A DNA stretch of 41,063 bases from a virus: positions 1 through 41,063 of IMG/VR virus record IMGVR_UViG_3300003323_000141; one strand, written 5' to 3'. The notes under the pieces were generated by a model. It ran no database searches, had not been told where the DNA came from, and saw only the letters and a program-made list of their open reading frames with translations. Below are positions 67 through 38,127 of the stretch, in pieces (the stretch's first letter is position 1; each line of letters begins with the position of its first letter). The translations under genes and the position numbers were made by a program.

Positions 67-654
67 ATGTCTACCCCTAAGCCCTCAAAGTTCCCGCCAG
101 CGGTAAATTCCAAACAGGAGGAAAAGGTTGTCGTGCTATATGACGCAGGGCTAGAGAGCACATGCCTGCTGCATAAGTGCGCAAGAGAAGGATACGAGCC
201 GGTCCCGCTGCTTATCGCGAGAGAAATGTCTGAGATTCAAAATCACGCACGAAGGGCATGCGAGAGAGCGGGGTTGCGTCTCAACACGGCGTATATCAGC
301 GGATGGGATGGAAAGGATGGGAAGCTAGGATTATATGTCGCGCTTGCGCGGTCTTACGGTCAGAGCATAGGAGCGGTAGGCGTAGCTGTAGGAGTTACAA
401 TTAGCGACAAGCCGGAATGGAGTCGCCTAACGCTCGGGGCGATGACTAGGCAGTTCCACTTAGACGGCAGCGGTATTACAGTGATGGCACCGTACGTAGA
501 GTGCCACAGAAGAGAGGTTGCAAGAATGGCGAAAGAGTACGGAGTTGAAGAGAGGGATATTTGGGCGTGTAACGCGGCAGGCGGAGTGTATCCGCAATGC
601 GGGCGCTGTGACGGCTGCCTAAGGTTCATGGACGCCGTTTCAGCAATAGGCTAA
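67..654 (+). CDS. QueC-like protein (7-deazaguanine synthase family, divergent PP-loop)
   Basis: QueC converts carboxy-deazaguanine to preQ0 with ATP and ammonia. The C-terminal zinc site is intact (Cys168, Cys178, Cys181, Cys184, with CGRCDGC matching the family's CGRCDSC), and the middle of the protein follows QueC spacing. The ATP-binding PP-loop, normally SGGLDS, reads DAGLES at residues 26-31, so catalysis may be altered. The ATG at 67 has a weak ribosome site. A GTG at 133, 11 bases after AGGAGG, would begin the protein at its conserved core and leave palindrome copy 1 outside the gene. The frame is also open to the left edge, so an upstream start cannot be excluded. A DpdA-type partner lies at 5203-5949. 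QueC-like folds also occur in defence proteins such as QatC, so the exact reaction is uncertain. Confidence 0.7.
   Translation: MSTPKPSKFPPAVNSKQEEKVVVLYDAGLESTCLLHKCAREGYEPVPLLIAREMSEIQNHARRACERAGLRLNTAYISGWDGKDGKLGLYVALARSYGQSIGAVGVAVGVTISDKPEWSRLTLGAMTRQFHLDGSGITVMAPYVECHRREVARMAKEYGVEERDIWACNAAGGVYPQCGRCDGCLRFMDAVSAIG
91..106. repeat. Dispersed palindrome, copy 1
   Basis: TTCCCGCCAGCGGTAA. The left arm is consensus and the right arm carries the G-to-T variant. It lies in the N-terminal segment of the QueC-like frame (read as FPPAVN), or just upstream of that gene if the GTG at 133 is the true start. The next copy is 5823 bp away, the largest gap in the set. Confidence 0.9.
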
Positions 655-5202: not shown

Positions 5203-5949
5203 ATGCTTTTCTACGTCGGCCTACATCATCCTAGCGATTCTGTCCATTTTGACAGGACGTTCATCTCGATTAACTCAGTCCGGAATAGGAGGTCTTGGTT
5301 TTGCGCCAACTGTTTCATTCTGGACTCTGGGGCATTTACTGAGATTTCGAAGTACGGAGAATATAGAAAGGAACCGGAAGAATATGCTAGAGAGATAGAC
5401 GTATGGAGGACGAATAACGGATTTCAGATGGCGGTGACGCAAGACTATATGTGTGAGCCGTTCATTTTGAGAAAGACGGGCAAAACTGTGTTAGCGCATC
5501 AGAAGATGACGATCGAGAGATATAAGAGAATAAGGAACGCAACAACGGCAGCGGTAATGCCTGTCCTGCAAGGATATAAGCCTTCGGAATACCTAGAACA
5601 CTTAGAGATGTATCACGAACAAGGGTTACTGAATGTAGGGATGAGAGTAGGAATAGGCTCTGTATGTAAGCGAAATTCAGATGTTCAGCAGATTGAGGAC
5701 TTACTAGAAATAGTAAAAGCAGCATGTGGCGGCATGAAGCTTCACGGATTTGGACTTAAGACAACAGCTCTAAGCAGTAGAAAAGTGTGGGAGTCTCTGT
5801 ATTCTGCGGATTCTATGGCGTGGTCCCTGGCTGCTAGGTTCTCCGGGGAAAATCAAAACCTCTGGTGGAACGCTAAGAAGTTTGAGGAAAAGATACTAGC
5901 GAAGCACAGAATTTTCCCGCCAGCGGGAAAAGTAGTTGCTAGTACCTAG
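5203..5949 (+). CDS. dpdA: DpdA-family deazapurine DNA transglycosylase (TGT-like)
   Basis: Protein of 248 residues in the tRNA-guanine transglycosylase superfamily, closest in pattern to DpdA, which swaps guanine in DNA for a 7-deazaguanine base. It carries LDSGAF (Asp41; TGT has DSGGF), QDYMCEPF (Asp81), PVLQGY near residue 122, RVGIGSVC, LHGFGLKT near 182 and ADSMAWS (Asp203). This motif order is the one seen in the DpdA-like group. Asp41 and Asp203 are my inferred catalytic pair. The gene begins directly after the portal stop, so it is expressed with the head genes. Palindrome copy 2 encodes residues near the C-terminus, after the last conserved motif. The base installed cannot be told from sequence; a QueC-like gene at 67-654 could supply precursor. 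Confidence 0.85.
   Translation: MLFYVGLHHPSDSVHFDRTFISINSVRNRRSWFCANCFILDSGAFTEISKYGEYRKEPEEYAREIDVWRTNNGFQMAVTQDYMCEPFILRKTGKTVLAHQKMTIERYKRIRNATTAAVMPVLQGYKPSEYLEHLEMYHEQGLLNVGMRVGIGSVCKRNSDVQQIEDLLEIVKAACGGMKLHGFGLKTTALSSRKVWESLYSADSMAWSLAARFSGENQNLWWNAKKFEEKILAKHRIFPPAGKVVAST
5914..5929. repeat. Dispersed palindrome, copy 2
   Basis: Perfect core with extended arms: positions 5912-5931 read TTTTCCCGCCAGCGGGAAAA. It lies in the last 15 codons of the DpdA-like gene, translated as FPPAGK, beyond the conserved domain. Confidence 0.95.
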
Positions 5950-8871: not shown

Positions 8872-8887
8872 TTCCCGCCAGCGGGAA
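8872..8887. repeat. Dispersed palindrome, copy 3
   Basis: Perfect core with full arms (8870-8889). It is intergenic, starting 4 bases after the 8835-8865 hairpin and ending 2 bases before the ATG at 8892, so a protein bound here could block translation-start DNA or the ribosome site region. Confidence 0.95.
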
Positions 8888-12488: not shown

Positions 12489-12504
12489 TTCCCGCCAGCG
12501 GTAA
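12489..12504. repeat. Dispersed palindrome, copy 4
   Basis: TTCCCGCCAGCGGTAA with the same G-to-T variant in the right arm as copy 1. It lies between genes, 4 bases after the stop at 12485 and 12 bases before the ATG of the tape measure gene (12517). Confidence 0.92.
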
Positions 12505-16235: not shown

Positions 16236-16251
16236 TTCCCGCTGGCGGGAA
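16236..16251. repeat. Dispersed palindrome, copy 5 (inverted centre)
   Basis: TTCCCGCTGGCGGGAA, perfect core with the central TG instead of CA. It lies between genes, beginning 3 bases after the stop at 16233 and ending 27 bases before the ATG at 16279. Confidence 0.93.
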
Positions 16252-26580: not shown

Positions 26581-27459
26581 ATGATCCGACACATTGAAGT
26601 AGCGAGGCGAGTAAACCCTTATGTGATGATTGATAAGCGCGTCCTTGAGGACACGCGGATCTCATATAAAGCGAAAGGGTTACTTGCTTACTTATTGAGC
26701 CGTCCTCCTGACTGGAAAGTAATGATGGAGGACTTGATTAACCGTAGCACGGACGGCAGAGAGGCCGTGCAGAGCGCTTTGAAGGAATTGGAGGCATGTG
26801 GTTACGCGCAGTTAGTTGCATGCGCTGGAGGTCAGGGGAACACGTTTGCTGGCAAGCGTTGGATAGTGGCGGAGAGTCCGGAGCTTCTGGAGAGTCCCGA
26901 CAAACGGGTTTCCCCTTCGTCGGGTTTCCCGACCGTCGGGAAATCAGCGACTACTAATAATGATCTTACTAAGAATGAAGTAACTAATAGCGAAGGCTTG
27001 TTGTTTGATCTTGGAGAAGAGCAAGGGATTCAGGTTGAGAAATCGACTACTCAGCAACCTAGAGAGAAGGGCGGACAATTTACCGCCAGCGGGAAAATCT
27101 TAGAGACACAGGCAGAGAAGATATACGCAGAGTATCCGCGCAAGCAGGATAAGACGGCTGCAATCAAAGCGATCGTTACGATTCTGAAGAAGGCGGAGTT
27201 TGGAGAGAACACGTTTACATATCTGCTTAGCAAGGTTAAGAGGTACGCGATTCTCCGGATGAGCAAGGAAATGCAATTCACGAAGAAGCCGGAGAACTTT
27301 TTCAAGGACGGAACTTACCTGGACGATGAAGAAGCATGGGCGGAATTACATCTCGGAAAGAAACCGCAGAACGGTACGGGTGCTAGCTATCAGCAACAGC
27401 AGCAACCGAAGCATAAGATCATGAGCGCTCAAGAAAGGAGGAATGCTGCCAATGTCTGA
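26581..27459 (+). CDS. Replication initiator-like protein (winged helix, lambda O-like arrangement)
   Basis: 292 residues. Residues 1-90 (VNPYVMIDKRVLEDTRISYKAK, then LLAYLLSRPPDWKV and the segment after DLINRS) match the winged-helix N-terminal domain of phage/plasmid replication initiators. The linker holds the iteron-like repeats at 26905-26943 and, downstream, palindrome copy 8 (read FTASGK). The C-terminus is charged, with helix-rich part (about 180-250), likely for helicase loading. The next gene is a DnaB-type helicase, as expected for an initiator/helicase pair. Confidence 0.75.
   Translation: MIRHIEVARRVNPYVMIDKRVLEDTRISYKAKGLLAYLLSRPPDWKVMMEDLINRSTDGREAVQSALKELEACGYAQLVACAGGQGNTFAGKRWIVAESPELLESPDKRVSPSSGFPTVGKSATTNNDLTKNEVTNSEGLLFDLGEEQGIQVEKSTTQQPREKGGQFTASGKILETQAEKIYAEYPRKQDKTAAIKAIVTILKKAEFGENTFTYLLSKVKRYAILRMSKEMQFTKKPENFFKDGTYLDDEEAWAELHLGKKPQNGTGASYQQQQQPKHKIMSAQERRNAANV
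26905..26995 (+). other. Candidate replication origin: iterons plus AT-rich stretch
   Basis: Three repeats start with CGGG at 26905, 26921 and 26937, exactly 16 bases apart; the first two share 13 of 16 bases. The second contains GTCGGGTTTCCCGAC (26919-26933), an inverted repeat. An A/T-rich stretch with few G/C bases follows from about 26945 to 26995. Lambda ori has the same layout, iterons then an AT-rich part inside the initiator gene. Confidence 0.5.
27080..27095. repeat. Dispersed palindrome, copy 8 (in frame)
   Basis: TTACCGCCAGCGGGAA, with the left-arm C-to-A variant. It is read in frame as part of FTASGK in the linker of the initiator gene, about 85 bases downstream of the candidate origin. 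Confidence 0.9.
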
Positions 27460-29190: not shown

Positions 29191-29503
29191 GCCAAAATAC
29201 AAGGAACCTCCGGAGCCGAAGACGCGGAGGGAAGCTATTGACGCGCTGTTCGGTCACCCGAAAGTGAGGAGCGCTCTTGTCCAGACCAATGAAAGCCTGG
29301 ACGTGAAACGCGAAAGAAAGATGGAGGGAGGCAACGCATTCAACGAGAGCCAGCACCGCAGGACTACCTTCCGCGTCTGTATATGGACTACGGAAGGAAA
29401 ATTCGGCGAGTGCGAGGATGAGGAGATGAGAGCGGCTCTGCATGGGGCAAAAAAGCTGGCGGGACTTTTCCCGCCAGCGGGAAAATCTAATGGAGGAGCT
29501 TGA
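29183..29503 (+). CDS. Unknown protein carrying palindrome copy 9
   Basis: 106 residues, starting within the end of the preceding gene. It has an N-terminal basic region and a small domain (FRVCIWTTEGKFGECED). The palindrome at 29468-29483 encodes FPPAGK near its C-terminus, after which only five residues remain. Without the palindrome, the protein would probably end near residue 94, so this copy could have been added to the 3' end. Confidence 0.6.
   Translation: MSRPKYKEPPEPKTRREAIDALFGHPKVRSALVQTNESLDVKRERKMEGGNAFNESQHRRTTFRVCIWTTEGKFGECEDEEMRAALHGAKKLAGLFPPAGKSNGGA
29468..29483. repeat. Dispersed palindrome, copy 9 (in frame)
   Basis: Perfect core and arms (29466-29485). It falls near the C-terminus of the small gene at 29183-29503 and is read as FPPAGK, just ahead of promoter P2 at 29550. 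Confidence 0.95.
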
Positions 29504-31679: not shown

Positions 31680-33152
31680 ATGGCAACAACGCTAGACAAA
31701 TGGAAGGCAGCACGGCGGGCGGCGGTTCCGTTGGTGGTAATTCATACGCCTGATCCGAACGCTACAATTCTTGAAATACTTAGAGAGACAGAGAAAGCGC
31801 CGATTAATAGGTGGGATTGCATTACGGGTGTACAGCCGATAAATCAACCGGCTCGAAAGCTGGCGTCATGGAGTAGCGGCGGATTTGAAACGATAAATCC
31901 AGTACAAGCAATTATGGCTGCCGATGAGCGGATGCCGGAAATGTCAATCCTGTTCATGTGCAATCTACATGCGTTTATAAGCTCTGGAGACGCAAGCGCA
32001 ATGGAGGTAATCCAAGCGCTGCAAAACGCTAGAGATAGGATGAAGAACAACAAACGCACTATCGCCATCCTTTGCCCATCTCTAACGCTTCCTGAGGAGC
32101 TGAAACATGATGCTGTTGTCATTCGGGAGCCTCTCCCGAATGAACAGCAAATCGAAGAGATCGCAAAGGTTACGCTAGATGCTTTTCCTACTTTTACCGC
32201 TGGCGGGAAAATTGCTGGGATCGTAGACGCAACTGCTGGCCTGTCGGCATTCGAGGCAGAGCAGGCCATTGCTATGAGCGTAACACCTGATGGCATTGAT
32301 TCGGAAATGCTATGGGAGAACAAGCGAGCAGCGATTGAGGCCGCGCCAGGGCTTAAGGTATGGCGGGGAAAAGAGGGATTCGGAAGCATTGGCGGATACA
32401 GCGCAATAAAGGGGTTTCTGCAAAAGCTGTTCAGCGGCTCGCTTAAGCCGCGAGTCATCGTGTTTATTGACGAGATAGAGAAGCAGTTAGCCGGACTTGC
32501 AGGGGATAGCTCAGGCGTAACACAGGATCAGTTAGGGGAAATCCTTACATTCATGGAGGATGAGCGATGCTCAGGAATCCTGTTACTCGGACCGGCTGGA
32601 ACGGGTAAGAGTAACATCAGCAAGGCGGCAGGCAATGAGGCGGGAGTGCCGGTTATTGCGCTGAATCTTGGCGCAATGAAACATGAGCACGTCGGACAAA
32701 GCGAAGCTAGAATCCGTGGAGCGCTGGATGTTATTCGAGCGATAGGGCAAGACAAGATTCTGTTCGTGGCGACGTGCAACAGCGTAGCCGTATTGCCTCC
32801 AGAGCTTAGGCGGCGCTTCCGTTTGGGTTCGTTCTTTATGGACTTACCGAATAAAGAGGAGCGTTCGGCTATTTGGAGACTTTACGGCGGCAGCGCAAAA
32901 GGCATACAAGAAGACGGATGGACAGGCGCGGAGATAAAGCAGTGCTGCGAATATGCGCAAGCATTTGGATGCTCTGAGAAAGAGGCGGCGAAGTATATCG
33001 TTCCGGTAAGTGTAAGCGCTGCGGATGTGGTAAAAGGGCTCAGGCAGCAAGCGAGCGGTAGATTCCTGTCAGCTAGTTACCCTGGACTATATCAGGAGAA
33101 GGCAGCAAGCGAATCGGTAAACGGTCGGAGTCTAAGCTTAGGGGAGGACTAA
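31680..33152 (+). CDS. AAA+ ATPase, Ycf46-like, with permuted motif order
   Basis: 490 residues. The N-terminal 240 residues follow the Ycf46 pattern (WDCITGVQ near 45, ending with the GLSAFEAEQA segment and WENKRAAIE). The AAA+ core has an unusual order: a Walker B-like FIDEIEK at about residues 260-266 lies before the Walker A loop GPAGTGKS at about 304-311, followed by sensor-1-like FVATCNSVAVL and PPELRRRF near 365-380 with the arginine finger region. In canonical Ycf46 the Walker A precedes the B motif. Palindrome copy 10 is inside (32194-32209, read FTAGGK in a variable segment). Role unknown; neighbours are DUF1257 and DUF2997 genes. Confidence 0.85.
   Translation: MATTLDKWKAARRAAVPLVVIHTPDPNATILEILRETEKAPINRWDCITGVQPINQPARKLASWSSGGFETINPVQAIMAADERMPEMSILFMCNLHAFISSGDASAMEVIQALQNARDRMKNNKRTIAILCPSLTLPEELKHDAVVIREPLPNEQQIEEIAKVTLDAFPTFTAGGKIAGIVDATAGLSAFEAEQAIAMSVTPDGIDSEMLWENKRAAIEAAPGLKVWRGKEGFGSIGGYSAIKGFLQKLFSGSLKPRVIVFIDEIEKQLAGLAGDSSGVTQDQLGEILTFMEDERCSGILLLGPAGTGKSNISKAAGNEAGVPVIALNLGAMKHEHVGQSEARIRGALDVIRAIGQDKILFVATCNSVAVLPPELRRRFRLGSFFMDLPNKEERSAIWRLYGGSAKGIQEDGWTGAEIKQCCEYAQAFGCSEKEAAKYIVPVSVSAADVVKGLRQQASGRFLSASYPGLYQEKAASESVNGRSLSLGED
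32194..32209. repeat. Dispersed palindrome, copy 10 (in frame, inverted centre)
   Basis: TTACCGCTGGCGGGAA with the left-arm variant and central TG. It is read in frame in the ATPase gene, in the variable part between conserved segments of the N-terminal domain. Confidence 0.9.
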
Positions 33153-34166: not shown

Positions 34167-34383
34167 AGATGGATCTGTGCGGTTCATTTACTCGGATGAG
34201 TTATGCGACTTACTCCGAGAGGGAGAGGCGGAGATCAAACGGGCGTCGCACGTAGAGCCATGCGGCGCTATGTGGACTGCTGATATGTCGCCAAGCTGCG
34301 GTCCGCTGCTAGGCCCGTTCCGGACCAGAGGCGAAGCGCTCCAGGCAGAAGTTGAATGGCTCAAAACAGAAAGGAACCTATGA
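34132..34383 (+). CDS. Small unknown protein after DUF2997
   Basis: 83 residues, overlapping the DUF2997 gene by 35 bases. Acidic, with two cysteines (VEPCGAMW, PSCGPLLG) and a helical C-terminus. Not recognised. The stop overlaps the next gene by ATGA. Confidence 0.55.
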   Translation: MSAQSEIRLSIEDGSVRFIYSDELCDLLREGEAEIKRASHVEPCGAMWTADMSPSCGPLLGPFRTRGEALQAEVEWLKTERNL

Positions 34384-35255
34384 TCCAAAAGAAGGCAATC
34401 GCGCTTTCCGTGTCGTTTTCGAGATTCGGCAATACGCGGAAAGTGGACACAGGAAGCGTACAGGTAAACGCGGACAAGAATCTGCTAAGTGTTAGCAAAA
34501 AGTTGTTCGTGAGCGCTGAATATACTGCGATAAAGCGCCGGGACGACGAAACTAGGGGATGGCTTTACGCTAGAACGCTCCCTAGCATGTTTAGGGCAGG
34601 GATATTTCTAATTCCCACACCGTTAGTGGAAGAGGTCTACAAGAAGCTGAAGGCGATTGCTTCGGACAGGGAGAAGCTTGTAAATAAGTTCCTGGAGTCG
34701 TACGACCGCATAATGATGCAATCCGCATTACAGTTGCGGGCGTTATTTAACGCAAACGACTATCCGCACAAATCGGAAGTAGCTAGGCAATTCGCTATGT
34801 CCTGGCGCATTATCACGCTAGGTCCGGAAGCGCTGGCAACGGTGTCAGAAGCGTTATTTGAGGAGGAGAAGAAAAAAGCGGAACAGGAATGGAGCGAGGC
34901 GACGCGAGAGATCCGTAACTTGCTCAGGACTGAGATGCAAGGGTTTGTTAGCGATATGGTGACAAAGTTAGCGCCTTCCGAAAACGGAAGGGCAAAAGTC
35001 TTTAAGCCTGCATGCCTGGACGGGATTAAGGAGTTTCTATCGCTAATAGACGTTCGGAACATCGCGGACGACAAAGAGTTAGCAAAGCTAACAAGTGCAG
35101 CGAGAATGCTATTACGTGGAGTTAACGCAGAATCACTAAGCGGAAACCTACCGCTGCAATCATCAGTCCAGGCCGGGTTTAAGGAAATTTCGGTTGCTAT
35201 GGATGGAATGGTTATAGAAAAACCAACAAGAGCGATTACATTCGAAGACGAATAA
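34380..35255 (+). CDS. Unknown protein, resembles DUF3150-type
   Basis: 291 residues from ATG 34380. N-terminal beta-type domain (SVSFSRFGNTRKVDTGSV) followed by helical regions with motifs YDRIMMQSALQLRALFNANDYPHKSEVARQF and a terminal domain with NIADDKELAKLTSAARMLL. It is generally like DUF3150 proteins, which accompany AAA+ ATPases, but the match is by eye and weak. It is between the DUF2997 neighbour and the HTH gene. Confidence 0.5.
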   Translation: MIQKKAIALSVSFSRFGNTRKVDTGSVQVNADKNLLSVSKKLFVSAEYTAIKRRDDETRGWLYARTLPSMFRAGIFLIPTPLVEEVYKKLKAIASDREKLVNKFLESYDRIMMQSALQLRALFNANDYPHKSEVARQFAMSWRIITLGPEALATVSEALFEEEKKKAEQEWSEATREIRNLLRTEMQGFVSDMVTKLAPSENGRAKVFKPACLDGIKEFLSLIDVRNIADDKELAKLTSAARMLLRGVNAESLSGNLPLQSSVQAGFKEISVAMDGMVIEKPTRAITFEDE

Positions 35256-35258
35256 TAT

Positions 35259-35507
35259 ATGGCAGAATACAAAAACGAGTTCATGGAGCGCCTGAAGCGC
35301 TTCGTTCCGATGAAGACAAGGGGTAAGAAGGGTATTGATTTCATCGCGCTATCTCAGGAGACGGGGGTTCCGTACGACAATCTTTATTCGTGGTTCAAGC
35401 GCGGATATTGTCCTTCCGGAGAGCATGCGGACACCATGCTAAAATGGGTGCAAGGCAAGGAAGAGCAGGAGCGTTTGCGCAACTTAAAAATTGCGCAGCA
35501 GTGCTAA
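35259..35507 (+). CDS. Small DNA-binding-like HTH protein
   Basis: 82 residues, start at 35259. A helix-turn-helix is likely at residues 25-50: DFIALSQETGVPYDNLYSWFKRG, with the typical helix-turn-helix pattern of repressors. Short length suggests a phage repressor or Cro-type. Its stop is three bases before palindrome copy 11, which lies between this gene and the next one. That placement makes it a candidate binder or regulator of the palindrome. Confidence 0.6.
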   Translation: MAEYKNEFMERLKRFVPMKTRGKKGIDFIALSQETGVPYDNLYSWFKRGYCPSGEHADTMLKWVQGKEEQERLRNLKIAQQC

Positions 35508-35510
35508 AAG

Positions 35511-35526
35511 TTCCCGCCAGCGGGAA
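35511..35526. repeat. Dispersed palindrome, copy 11
   Basis: Perfect core TTCCCGCCAGCGGGAA, intergenic. It sits 3 bases after the stop of the HTH gene and about 77 bases before the ATG of the ParB/KorB-like gene (35603), consistent with autoregulation by either. Confidence 0.95.
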
Positions 35527-35602
35527 AATTGATTTGCAAAAACATAGACGCGGAATAGCGTCGGACACCGCGAGAAATTCGCACAACTTAGAAAGACATA
35601 AT

Positions 35603-36571
35603 ATGAAAAAGCAGTCTCAGCAGGAGCAGCATTCGAACACGGTTCGCCACAACAAGCAGCAGCAACAGCAGCAGGGCAAGAACGCAGCTACGAAAAAGCC
35701 GAAGAGCAAAGGCGGCGGAGAAGGCGAGCAGCAGCAGGAGAAACAGAAAGAAGGAGAAACAGGCGAGCAAGCATCCGGTGACTCGGATAAGCAAATCCAG
35801 CTTGCGCAGCCCGTTCAGGTGGTATGCTCGGAGCGCGATATTCGCGAAATCCTACAGGAGCGCATTAGCTTCCTTCCCGGAAGCTCTGGCGTGCAGATTG
35901 ACCCTAACACGCCTGTAGAAGAGTACGCAGCGGCGCTGAAGTATTTTTGCGGCCTGCAAGAAAACATTGGGTTCATTATCGGGGATTTCCTCGTTTTTGG
36001 CCAAGCGACATACGGCAGCAAGTACGCTGCGGCGGTCGAGGCGACCGGCAGGACTTATGCGACGCTGAGTAACTGGAATTCGATTGCCAAGGCTGTTCCG
36101 CCGTCTCTGCGCCGTCCGGAACTAACTTTCTCGCATCATGCGGAAGTTGCGGCGCTTCCGGAAGCGAAGATGAAGCGCGCCCTGGATAAGGCTGTAGAGA
36201 ACAAATGGACGAAATCCGATCTACGCGCCTACATCCAGGAGGAGAAGCGGAAGGATGCGGAACGCGCGGCAGCAAAGGCCGCGAAGGCTGCCGGAGAAGC
36301 AGGCGCGGGAGAACAGCAGCCGGGAGGACCGCAGGGCGAACAGCAGACAGGACAGCAGCAGCCAGGGGAAGGGGCAGCGGCTCAGAGCGAGAAGCCATCC
36401 GAAGATGCGCAGCTACAATACGACAAGTGCATTGAGCACTTGGATGCGGCTGCTACGTACCTCCGCAGCGCAGCTTTCAGCGAAATGCCGCTTACCGCTG
36501 GAAAGGCGATGATTAACACGATCAAGCCTATCGTGGCGGTTTACGAAAATTGGATCGAAAAGCACGGGTAA
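35603..36571 (+). CDS. Q-rich protein with ParB/KorB- or LmbU-like DNA-binding domain
   Basis: 322 residues from ATG 35603 (ACATAATATG). Residues 1-70 are a low-complexity Q/K/E/G-rich tail. The central part, about 75-215, has YGSKYAAAVEATG, RTYATLSNW, then PELTFSHHAEVAALPEAKMKRALDKAVENKWTKSDLRAYI. The FSHHAEVAALP and WTKSDLR order recalls the LmbU regulator family, and also the ParB/KorB HTH domain layout (gHArall..L...Q......lSvRe). A second Q/G-rich linker (about 220-270) precedes a helical C-terminal domain. Likely a DNA-binding organiser or regulator. It lies next to palindrome copy 11 and is my main candidate for the protein that binds the palindrome. Confidence 0.6.
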   Translation: MKKQSQQEQHSNTVRHNKQQQQQQGKNAATKKPKSKGGGEGEQQQEKQKEGETGEQASGDSDKQIQLAQPVQVVCSERDIREILQERISFLPGSSGVQIDPNTPVEEYAAALKYFCGLQENIGFIIGDFLVFGQATYGSKYAAAVEATGRTYATLSNWNSIAKAVPPSLRRPELTFSHHAEVAALPEAKMKRALDKAVENKWTKSDLRAYIQEEKRKDAERAAAKAAKAAGEAGAGEQQPGGPQGEQQTGQQQPGEGAAAQSEKPSEDAQLQYDKCIEHLDAAATYLRSAAFSEMPLTAGKAMINTIKPIVAVYENWIEKHG

Positions 36572-37818: not shown

Positions 37819-38127
37819 ATGAAAAATCAAATTAACGGCAATGCAGCGATGCCGCCGAAAACGAAAGAAGAAGCTAGCGTTGAGAAGCGCATTAGAAACA
37901 TAGCGTTTCTAAGCTATTCGAAAGAATTAAACGGGCCGGAGATTAGGAAAATCTGTTTCGAGGTTTTGGAGATCCTGGCGCGAATTTTCCCGCCAGCGGG
38001 AAAATGTTCCAAGTTTGAACGCGGAATTATGATGCTAGTGACGCACTCTATTGCGATTGCGGCTGGAATGTATATAGGGGCTAGGCTGCTGCTTTGGAAC
38101 ATGGATCATTCTGTTTCTGGATTATGA
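37819..38127 (+). CDS. Membrane protein carrying palindrome copy 12
   Basis: 102 residues. The C-terminal half has a likely transmembrane helix (LVTHSIAIAAGMYIGARLLLW). The palindrome at 37987-38002 encodes FPPAGK just before it. The N-terminal half is a soluble helical domain with RKICFEVLEILARI. Not recognised. ATGA overlap with the next gene. Confidence 0.6.
   Translation: MKNQINGNAAMPPKTKEEASVEKRIRNIAFLSYSKELNGPEIRKICFEVLEILARIFPPAGKCSKFERGIMMLVTHSIAIAAGMYIGARLLLWNMDHSVSGL
37987..38002. repeat. Dispersed palindrome, copy 12 (in frame)
   Basis: Perfect core with full arms (37985-38004) in the membrane protein gene, read as FPPAGK between a soluble domain and a transmembrane helix. Distance to copy 1 across the joined ends would be 3167 bases. 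Confidence 0.95.

Follow-up and report, generated by a model that had tools for sequence, protein, structure and literature searches.

A dispersed 16-bp palindrome and an LmbU-like protein as its candidate binder in a lineage of uncultivated phages

The IMG/VR virus record IMGVR_UViG_3300003323_000141 (41,063 bp; a virus of bacteria), which was analysed over its whole length and is referred to here as the window, carries 12 evenly spaced copies of the 16-bp palindrome TTCCCGC(CA/TG)GCGGGAA, about one per 3,400 letters. One copy lies in front of a gene for a 322-aa protein that matches the LmbU family and is predicted to have a ParB-type helix-turn-helix (HTH), and we consider this LmbU-like protein likely to be the palindrome binder, although no binding data are available. 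The analysis established the sites, their spacing, the synteny, the preservation of dyad symmetry between relatives, the protein family with its predicted fold, and the co-occurrence of gene and sites. Binding is well supported by comparison but, like dimerisation, autoregulation and silencing, it is inferred, as there are neither binding nor expression data.

Palindromes in the window and in related phages

Eight copies in the window match TTCCCGCNNGCGGGAA exactly and four carry one mismatch. When up to three mismatches were allowed, 14 matches were obtained, compared with 2.05 +/- 1.35 in shuffled sequences, and none of 100 shuffles reached 14. The spacing of the copies has a CV of 0.27, against 0.89 for random placement (P < 5e-5; mean gap 3.4 kb). 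The longest gap (5.8 kb) is found at the TerL end, where the window is without a site that is seen in relatives. The copies, for which no strand is assigned, and the genes next to copy 11 are:

91..106, palindrome copy 1 (one mismatch), within the QueC-like gene
5914..5929, palindrome copy 2, at the TGT-like gene's 3' end and ahead of the conserved 5974-7080 gene
8872..8887, palindrome copy 3, intergenic
12489..12504, palindrome copy 4 (one mismatch), a short distance ahead of the 12517-14544 gene
16236..16251, palindrome copy 5, intergenic, directly past a stop codon
20355..20370, palindrome copy 6, intergenic, directly past a stop codon
23997..24012, palindrome copy 7, within a 478-496 aa ORF
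27080..27095, palindrome copy 8 (one mismatch), within the Rep-like gene
29468..29483, palindrome copy 9, at the 3' end of a 106-aa ORF
32194..32209, palindrome copy 10 (one mismatch), within the AAA ATPase gene
34356..35255, + strand, DUF3150 protein, adjoining the cassette, with synteny in G004 and G010
35259..35507, + strand, small HTH protein of 82 aa, immediately ahead of the LmbU-like gene; rival or partner in binding
35511..35526, palindrome copy 11, TTCCCGCCAGCGGGAA, between the small HTH and LmbU-like genes; putative autoregulatory site
35603..36571, + strand, LmbU-like / ParB-HTH protein of 322 aa (assigned from the NF038070 match, AlphaFold and homologues)
37987..38002, palindrome copy 12, within a 102-aa ORF

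Copy 11 indeed lies between the two genes, as had been noted in the first-pass annotation: it starts 4 bp past the stop codon of the HTH gene (35507) and 76 bp before the ATG at 35603. A sigma70-like promoter signal was not enriched near the sites, which disfavours simple promoter operators. Five of the 12 copies are located well within genes, and this counts against the explanation that we prefer below. No integrase (PF00589 or PF00239) was matched in the window or in its relatives G004, G010, G012 and G013, records that may be incomplete, so that neither lysogeny nor a need for lysogenic silencing has been shown. When bacterial genomes were scanned for the protein and the portal of the phage, nothing was found, and hence no host or prophage is known. 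The window further contains a QueC-like gene (1-654) and a gene resembling queuine tRNA-ribosyltransferase/DpdA (5203-5949), which suggests a possible 7-deazaguanine modification of the phage DNA.

By TerL and portal searches a lineage of uncultivated phages was gathered. Every member whose sequence is long enough for a judgment carries a dispersed 16-bp palindrome of its own. In G004 it reads GTTGCGT(CA/TG)ACGCAAC (site sequence GTTGCGTCAACGCAAC); GTATCG arms are found in G002, G003, G010, G011 and G012 (site sequence of G012, GTATCGTTGGCGATAC), and CTATCG arms in G006, G008 and G009. Shuffled sequences contained at most 1-2 copies of any single arm. Across 61 sites on nine contigs the central step is CA (32 sites), TG (24) or TA (5) and nothing else, and pairing at the outer six positions is intact in 57-61 of the 61. 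The arms have thus changed, yet the dyad symmetry has been kept, and the central step is the sole asymmetry of the sites, occurring in both orientations.

Positions are shared between relatives as well. The 3' end of TerL carries a site in seven of nine genomes, and a site precedes the homologue of the 5974-7080 gene in most genomes, with the boundary occupied by copy 2 also having one in G003, G008, G009, G010 and G012. The window and G004 both have a site before the homologue of the 12517-14544 gene, where G004 carries its different palindrome at the place of copy 4, and both have one in the middle of the Rep gene at the same relative place. Intergenic sites amount to 20 of 65, against about 6% expected; these placement probabilities are simple binomials that ignore the relatedness of the genomes. 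Even spacing was found in the window, G003, G010 and G012. Besides virion genes, the four near-complete genomes (the window, G004, G010 and G012) have in common the LmbU-like gene, the small HTH gene and two nuclease-like genes, and in all four a palindrome is close to the LmbU-like gene.

No palindrome was enriched in the examined stretches of the portal relatives G014, G015 and G018, and LmbU was not matched there; G016 and G017, of which 18-21 kb were examined, likewise showed no enriched palindrome, and their match to LmbU was only weak (E about 1e-5). In G013 the match to LmbU is distant (E 3.7e-7, or 2e-11 with the profile built here), the gene being located at 60.6-61.3 kb; copies of TTCCTTACGTAAGGAA are clustered at 9.5-17.4 kb of this genome, and isolated ones lie at 30.9 and 64.3 kb (loci L196-L199). 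No dispersed palindrome accompanies the homologue in Synechococcus phage Yong-M3-232. Among the 92 stretches of a palindrome-first scan with GTATCG arms, an LmbU-like protein was found only in G012 and G035, and the site in G035 is inside the gene.

The 116-kb record IMGVR_UViG_3300037127_000056 (G001, loci L120-L125) harbors 41 copies (up to one mismatch) of TTCCCGCCGGCGGGAA, with a mean gap of 2.8 kb and a spacing more even than random. No LmbU, HTH_ParB or ParB_N homologue was found in it, and the presence of the same arms without a detectable LmbU or ParB homologue counts against our preferred explanation.

The LmbU-like protein and its small HTH neighbor

The 322-aa protein is best explained as a DNA-binding protein related to LmbU that has an HTH of the ParB/Noc type and lacks a CTPase domain, its binding of DNA being inferred. 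The first-pass annotation had seen in a segment FSHHAEVAALP...WTKSDLR both the HTH layout of ParB/KorB and a resemblance to LmbU; the segment is present in the protein, and both readings were borne out. The NCBIfam model NF038070 (LmbU_fam_TF) matches residues 96-226 with an E-value of 1.3e-26 and 93.5 bits. As the curated cut-off is 125 bits, the protein appears from its sequence to be homologous to the LmbU family, yet to lie outside the curated boundary. Pfam and PHROGs gave no confident family, and there was no Pfam match of the window protein itself; its syntenic homologue in G004 passes Pfam HTH_ParB (23.6 vs 22.6 bits). Homologues were identified in G004, G010, G012, G009 and, weakly, G013. 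A related-locus search with the single protein had returned nothing, and its relative was reached via TerL and portal.

An AlphaFold2 model built with 21 homologues has a pLDDT above 90 over most of residues 70-230. With VIA-align, residues 121-220 were superimposed on the DNA-binding domain of Noc bound to its site (Z 11.1, rmsd 2.4 A, 99 residues), and the core was matched to ParB/Spo0J with parS (Z 10.1). Foldseek E-values were weak (0.05), with probabilities of 0.97-1.0 for the top Spo0J and Noc chains, and a sequence profile of the protein searched against the PDB gave no match. The predicted core therefore fits the DNA-binding fold of Noc/ParB, and an unrelated fold, which would have refuted the proposed DNA-binding role, was not obtained. 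According to prediction, a Q-rich disordered N-terminus (residues 1-46, with residues 1-69 mostly disordered) is followed by the core (about 100-230) containing the ParB-type HTH and its recognition helix (152-164), a disordered linker (241-259) and C-terminal helices at 267-321 (267-294 and 300-321), in agreement with the disordered flanks and helical C-terminal domain that had been read from the sequence. Confidence in the modelled C-terminal domain is only moderate, and this counts against our preferred explanation. A ParB_N CTPase domain was not detected in the window, G004, G010, G012 or G013.

Profile searches revealed that the small HTH gene is kept directly upstream of the LmbU-like gene in the window, G004, G010 and G012. 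A tblastn result according to which it was not shared was rejected on these grounds, and the view of the LmbU-like protein as the sole shared DNA-binding candidate was withdrawn. Being as well conserved as the LmbU-like protein and likewise following the type of site, the small HTH protein provides a further point against the explanation that we prefer. AlphaFold predicts a four-helix HTH for it, with weak XRE/SinR/P22-c2-like matches. Upstream of the cassette, the genes for an AAA ATPase (31680-33152) and for the DUF3150 protein (34356-35255) are kept in G004 and G010 and were undetected in G012. The absence of an obvious ParA, remarked on earlier, holds, as no AAA_31 match was obtained.

Candidate binder and possible role of the sites

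The proposal that the LmbU-like protein binds the palindrome has been strengthened by the co-occurrence of gene and sites, by synteny, by the divergence of the arms in relatives and by single palindromes in other LmbU-type genes, in the absence of binding data. LmbU-type genes in other phages have one perfect 7+2+7 palindrome (16 bp, centred on YR), located within or at the gene. In four cases it is free of the RRR-codon constraint described below (GTACTGTTAACAGTAC in G025, GTCGCGACGTCGCGAC in G021, GTATGGTTAACCATAC in G024 and GTATCGTTGACGATAC in G035), whereas the density of YR-centred palindromes in the remainder of those contigs would predict 0.5. G021 (loci L207 and L208) contains in addition a separate 19-bp palindrome, TGATACC-N5-GGTATCA, three times. 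LmbU of Streptomyces lincolnensis binds the palindrome CGCCGGCG, or in extended form TCGCCGGCGA, and has been modelled on Thermus Spo0J (PMC6510168, PMC10763038); it represses its own gene (PMC6510168). When compared with CGCCGGCG, the core reads TCGC-CA-GCGA in G003/G012 and CCGC-CA-GCGG in the window. The recognition helix LSTLKGYAE occurs in both G010 and G012, which both have GTATCG arms; as the two are relatives, covariation of helix and site is confounded by shared descent.

That the small HTH protein (35259-35507) itself binds the palindrome, with the LmbU-like protein assisting or doing otherwise, is rather improbable in our judgment. Its conserved place directly upstream in the four near-complete genomes, its predicted HTH and its tracking of the site type would all suit such a function. 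However, the profile search gave no convincing small-HTH match in the single-palindrome phages G021, G024, G025 and G035, and since their LmbU-type genes carry a palindrome all the same, the LmbU-like protein is favoured; moreover, LmbU itself binds a palindrome with a similar core, and 16 bp suits a ParB-type dimer.

A second group of palindromes is spelled by codons. Six phage LmbU-type genes were taken by a peptide pattern, and in five of them the codons of S-RRR-E/D (C-RRR-Q in one case) spell a perfect 16-bp palindrome, the sixth missing by one pair, where about 0.01 per gene is expected from codon usage. In G033 both ends of the palindrome have changed together (TGC...CAA). Among nine plasmid-borne actinobacterial LmbU genes only one has S-RRR-D, and there the palindrome is present (GTCCCGTCGACGGGAC). 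This comparison was unplanned and the sample is small. In-gene codon palindromes are located at L243, L246, L259, L266 and L273 (G027, G028, G029, G033 and G036) and at L376. The view that the in-gene palindromes at L033 and L105 are a coincidence of S-RRR-E codons was reversed by the excess in the codon-usage test on unselected genes; both loci were left out of the count because they had been retrieved via the palindrome.

In the explanation that we prefer, a dimer of the LmbU-like protein would bind the palindrome at all 12 copies, and binding to copy 11, in front of its own gene, would result in autoregulation of its operon. Together with its small HTH neighbor it would act as a genome-wide silencer or roadblock and as specificity determinant, the two proteins forming a KorA/KorB-like pair on stoperator-like sites. 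Autoregulation through the intergenic copy, which had been expected from the first reading, is plausible because all four near-complete genomes have a copy ahead of the gene; autoregulation itself remains an inference. A silencer or roadblock is favoured by sites at gene boundaries in every module and by the replacement of whole arm sets together. For this explanation in full we see about equal chances of being right and wrong. The main rival leaves the LmbU-like protein on all copies and assigns it an architectural role, in which it would bridge, condense or space out the phage DNA to serve packaging, replication or segregation. It accounts for the even spacing in the window, G003, G010 and G012, for copies within genes and in every module and for the lack of a promoter signal at the sites, and it agrees with the Q-rich disordered flanks and with the structural match to Noc, whose sites scatter round the chromosome. 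It gives no obvious reason, however, for whole arm sets changing together between relatives, and the preference of the sites for gene boundaries speaks against it as well; we regard it as unlikely, though as a serious possibility.

Two further readings have very little in their favor. If the palindromes acted as RNA hairpins (terminators or processing signals) and not as protein-binding DNA, the many sites directly past stop codons would be explained, and isolated 16-mers can form 5-6 bp hairpins of -4 to -7 kcal/mol. Yet no T-tract follows the sites, the centre is CA, TG or TA throughout, a restriction for which a hairpin loop would have no need, some copies are mid-gene, and AT-rich arms give weak hairpins, so that we consider this reading highly improbable. 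Hardly more credible are centromere-like (parS) copies for the partition of a plasmid-like prophage: a ParB-type HTH and 16-bp palindromes are in line with it, but there is no ParA, no ParB_N CTPase domain was found in the window, G004, G010 or G012, and the sites are spread across the entire genome. Going beyond the silencer or roadblock as such, LmbU-type phage genes may each retain an operator of their own, in some cases spelled by synonymous codons within the DNA-binding domain, and one lineage may have multiplied this operator into an evenly spaced array whose specificity changes as a set. This would be a new genome-wide silencing or immunity system, in which a ParB-type dimer lacking the CTPase domain works with a partner resembling KorA, and we put it forward only tentatively, as somewhat doubtful.

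Relation to known systems

With the LmbU family the 322-aa protein shares a homologous DNA-binding domain with ParB-type HTH, and the LmbU target core resembles the CGC-CA-GCG of the window, binding again being inferred; it differs in being a phage gene product with about 12 dispersed sites, a Q-rich N-terminus and a different C-terminal region. NBS (PMC8429893) and OB (PMC11790492) sites likewise measure 16 bp, and in RK2 silencing by KorB/KorA involves several sites over the replicon, with KorA as small HTH partner (PMC11790492). The ParB-type HTH, the multiple 16-bp sites and, for RK2, the small HTH partner are thus common to the window, KorB/KorA and ParB/Noc, whereas the phage protein has no CTPase N-terminal domain and no ParA, and its sites vary between close relatives. 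Cluster A mycobacteriophages have 20-30 repressor sites (stoperators) over the genome in short intergenic gaps (PMC9283540, PMC6550527); a change of repressor is accompanied by a change of motif, and upstream of rep the repressor has a conserved site (PMC6550527). Dispersal, short intergenic gaps and motif change between relatives are shared, but a stoperator is an asymmetric site of 13 bp that follows the direction of transcription and is recognised by a monomer of another fold, unlike the symmetric 16-bp sites of the window. Dispersed palindromes are also found in the Cluster O phages Corndog and Catdawg, which are without integrase and have more than 30 17-bp palindromes, many of them intergenic, not at promoters and of unknown function (PMC4351075). 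Similarly, the palindromes described here are dispersed over a phage in which no integrase was found, many are intergenic and no promoter signal was seen, while the spacing is 7+2+7 as opposed to 7+3+7. In Catdawg 36.0-72.1 kb no convincing LmbU-like match was obtained (best E 0.025), and the ParB-like gp90 of this phage has a ParB_N domain.

Dispersed phage palindromes (Cluster O, PMC4351075) and regulators of the LmbU and ParB type were already known; the link between palindrome and LmbU, the re-coding of sites throughout the lineage and the palindromes within phage genes of the LmbU type are new. In the literature searched, the one paper naming both 'LmbU family' and 'phage' concerns an antibiotic-responsive signalling cascade in lincomycin biosynthesis. 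While the palindromes of Cluster O were reported without a known binder or function, the present lineage offers naturally re-coded site sets and a conserved candidate binder beside one copy. Each protein is predicted to bind the arms of its own phage but not the arms found in related phages, which makes the question of the binder directly testable. LmbU/ParB-HTH proteins, known from antibiotic gene clusters, would thereby be extended to genome-scale control in phages, and the array points to a form of control or organisation of an entire viral genome about which little is known.
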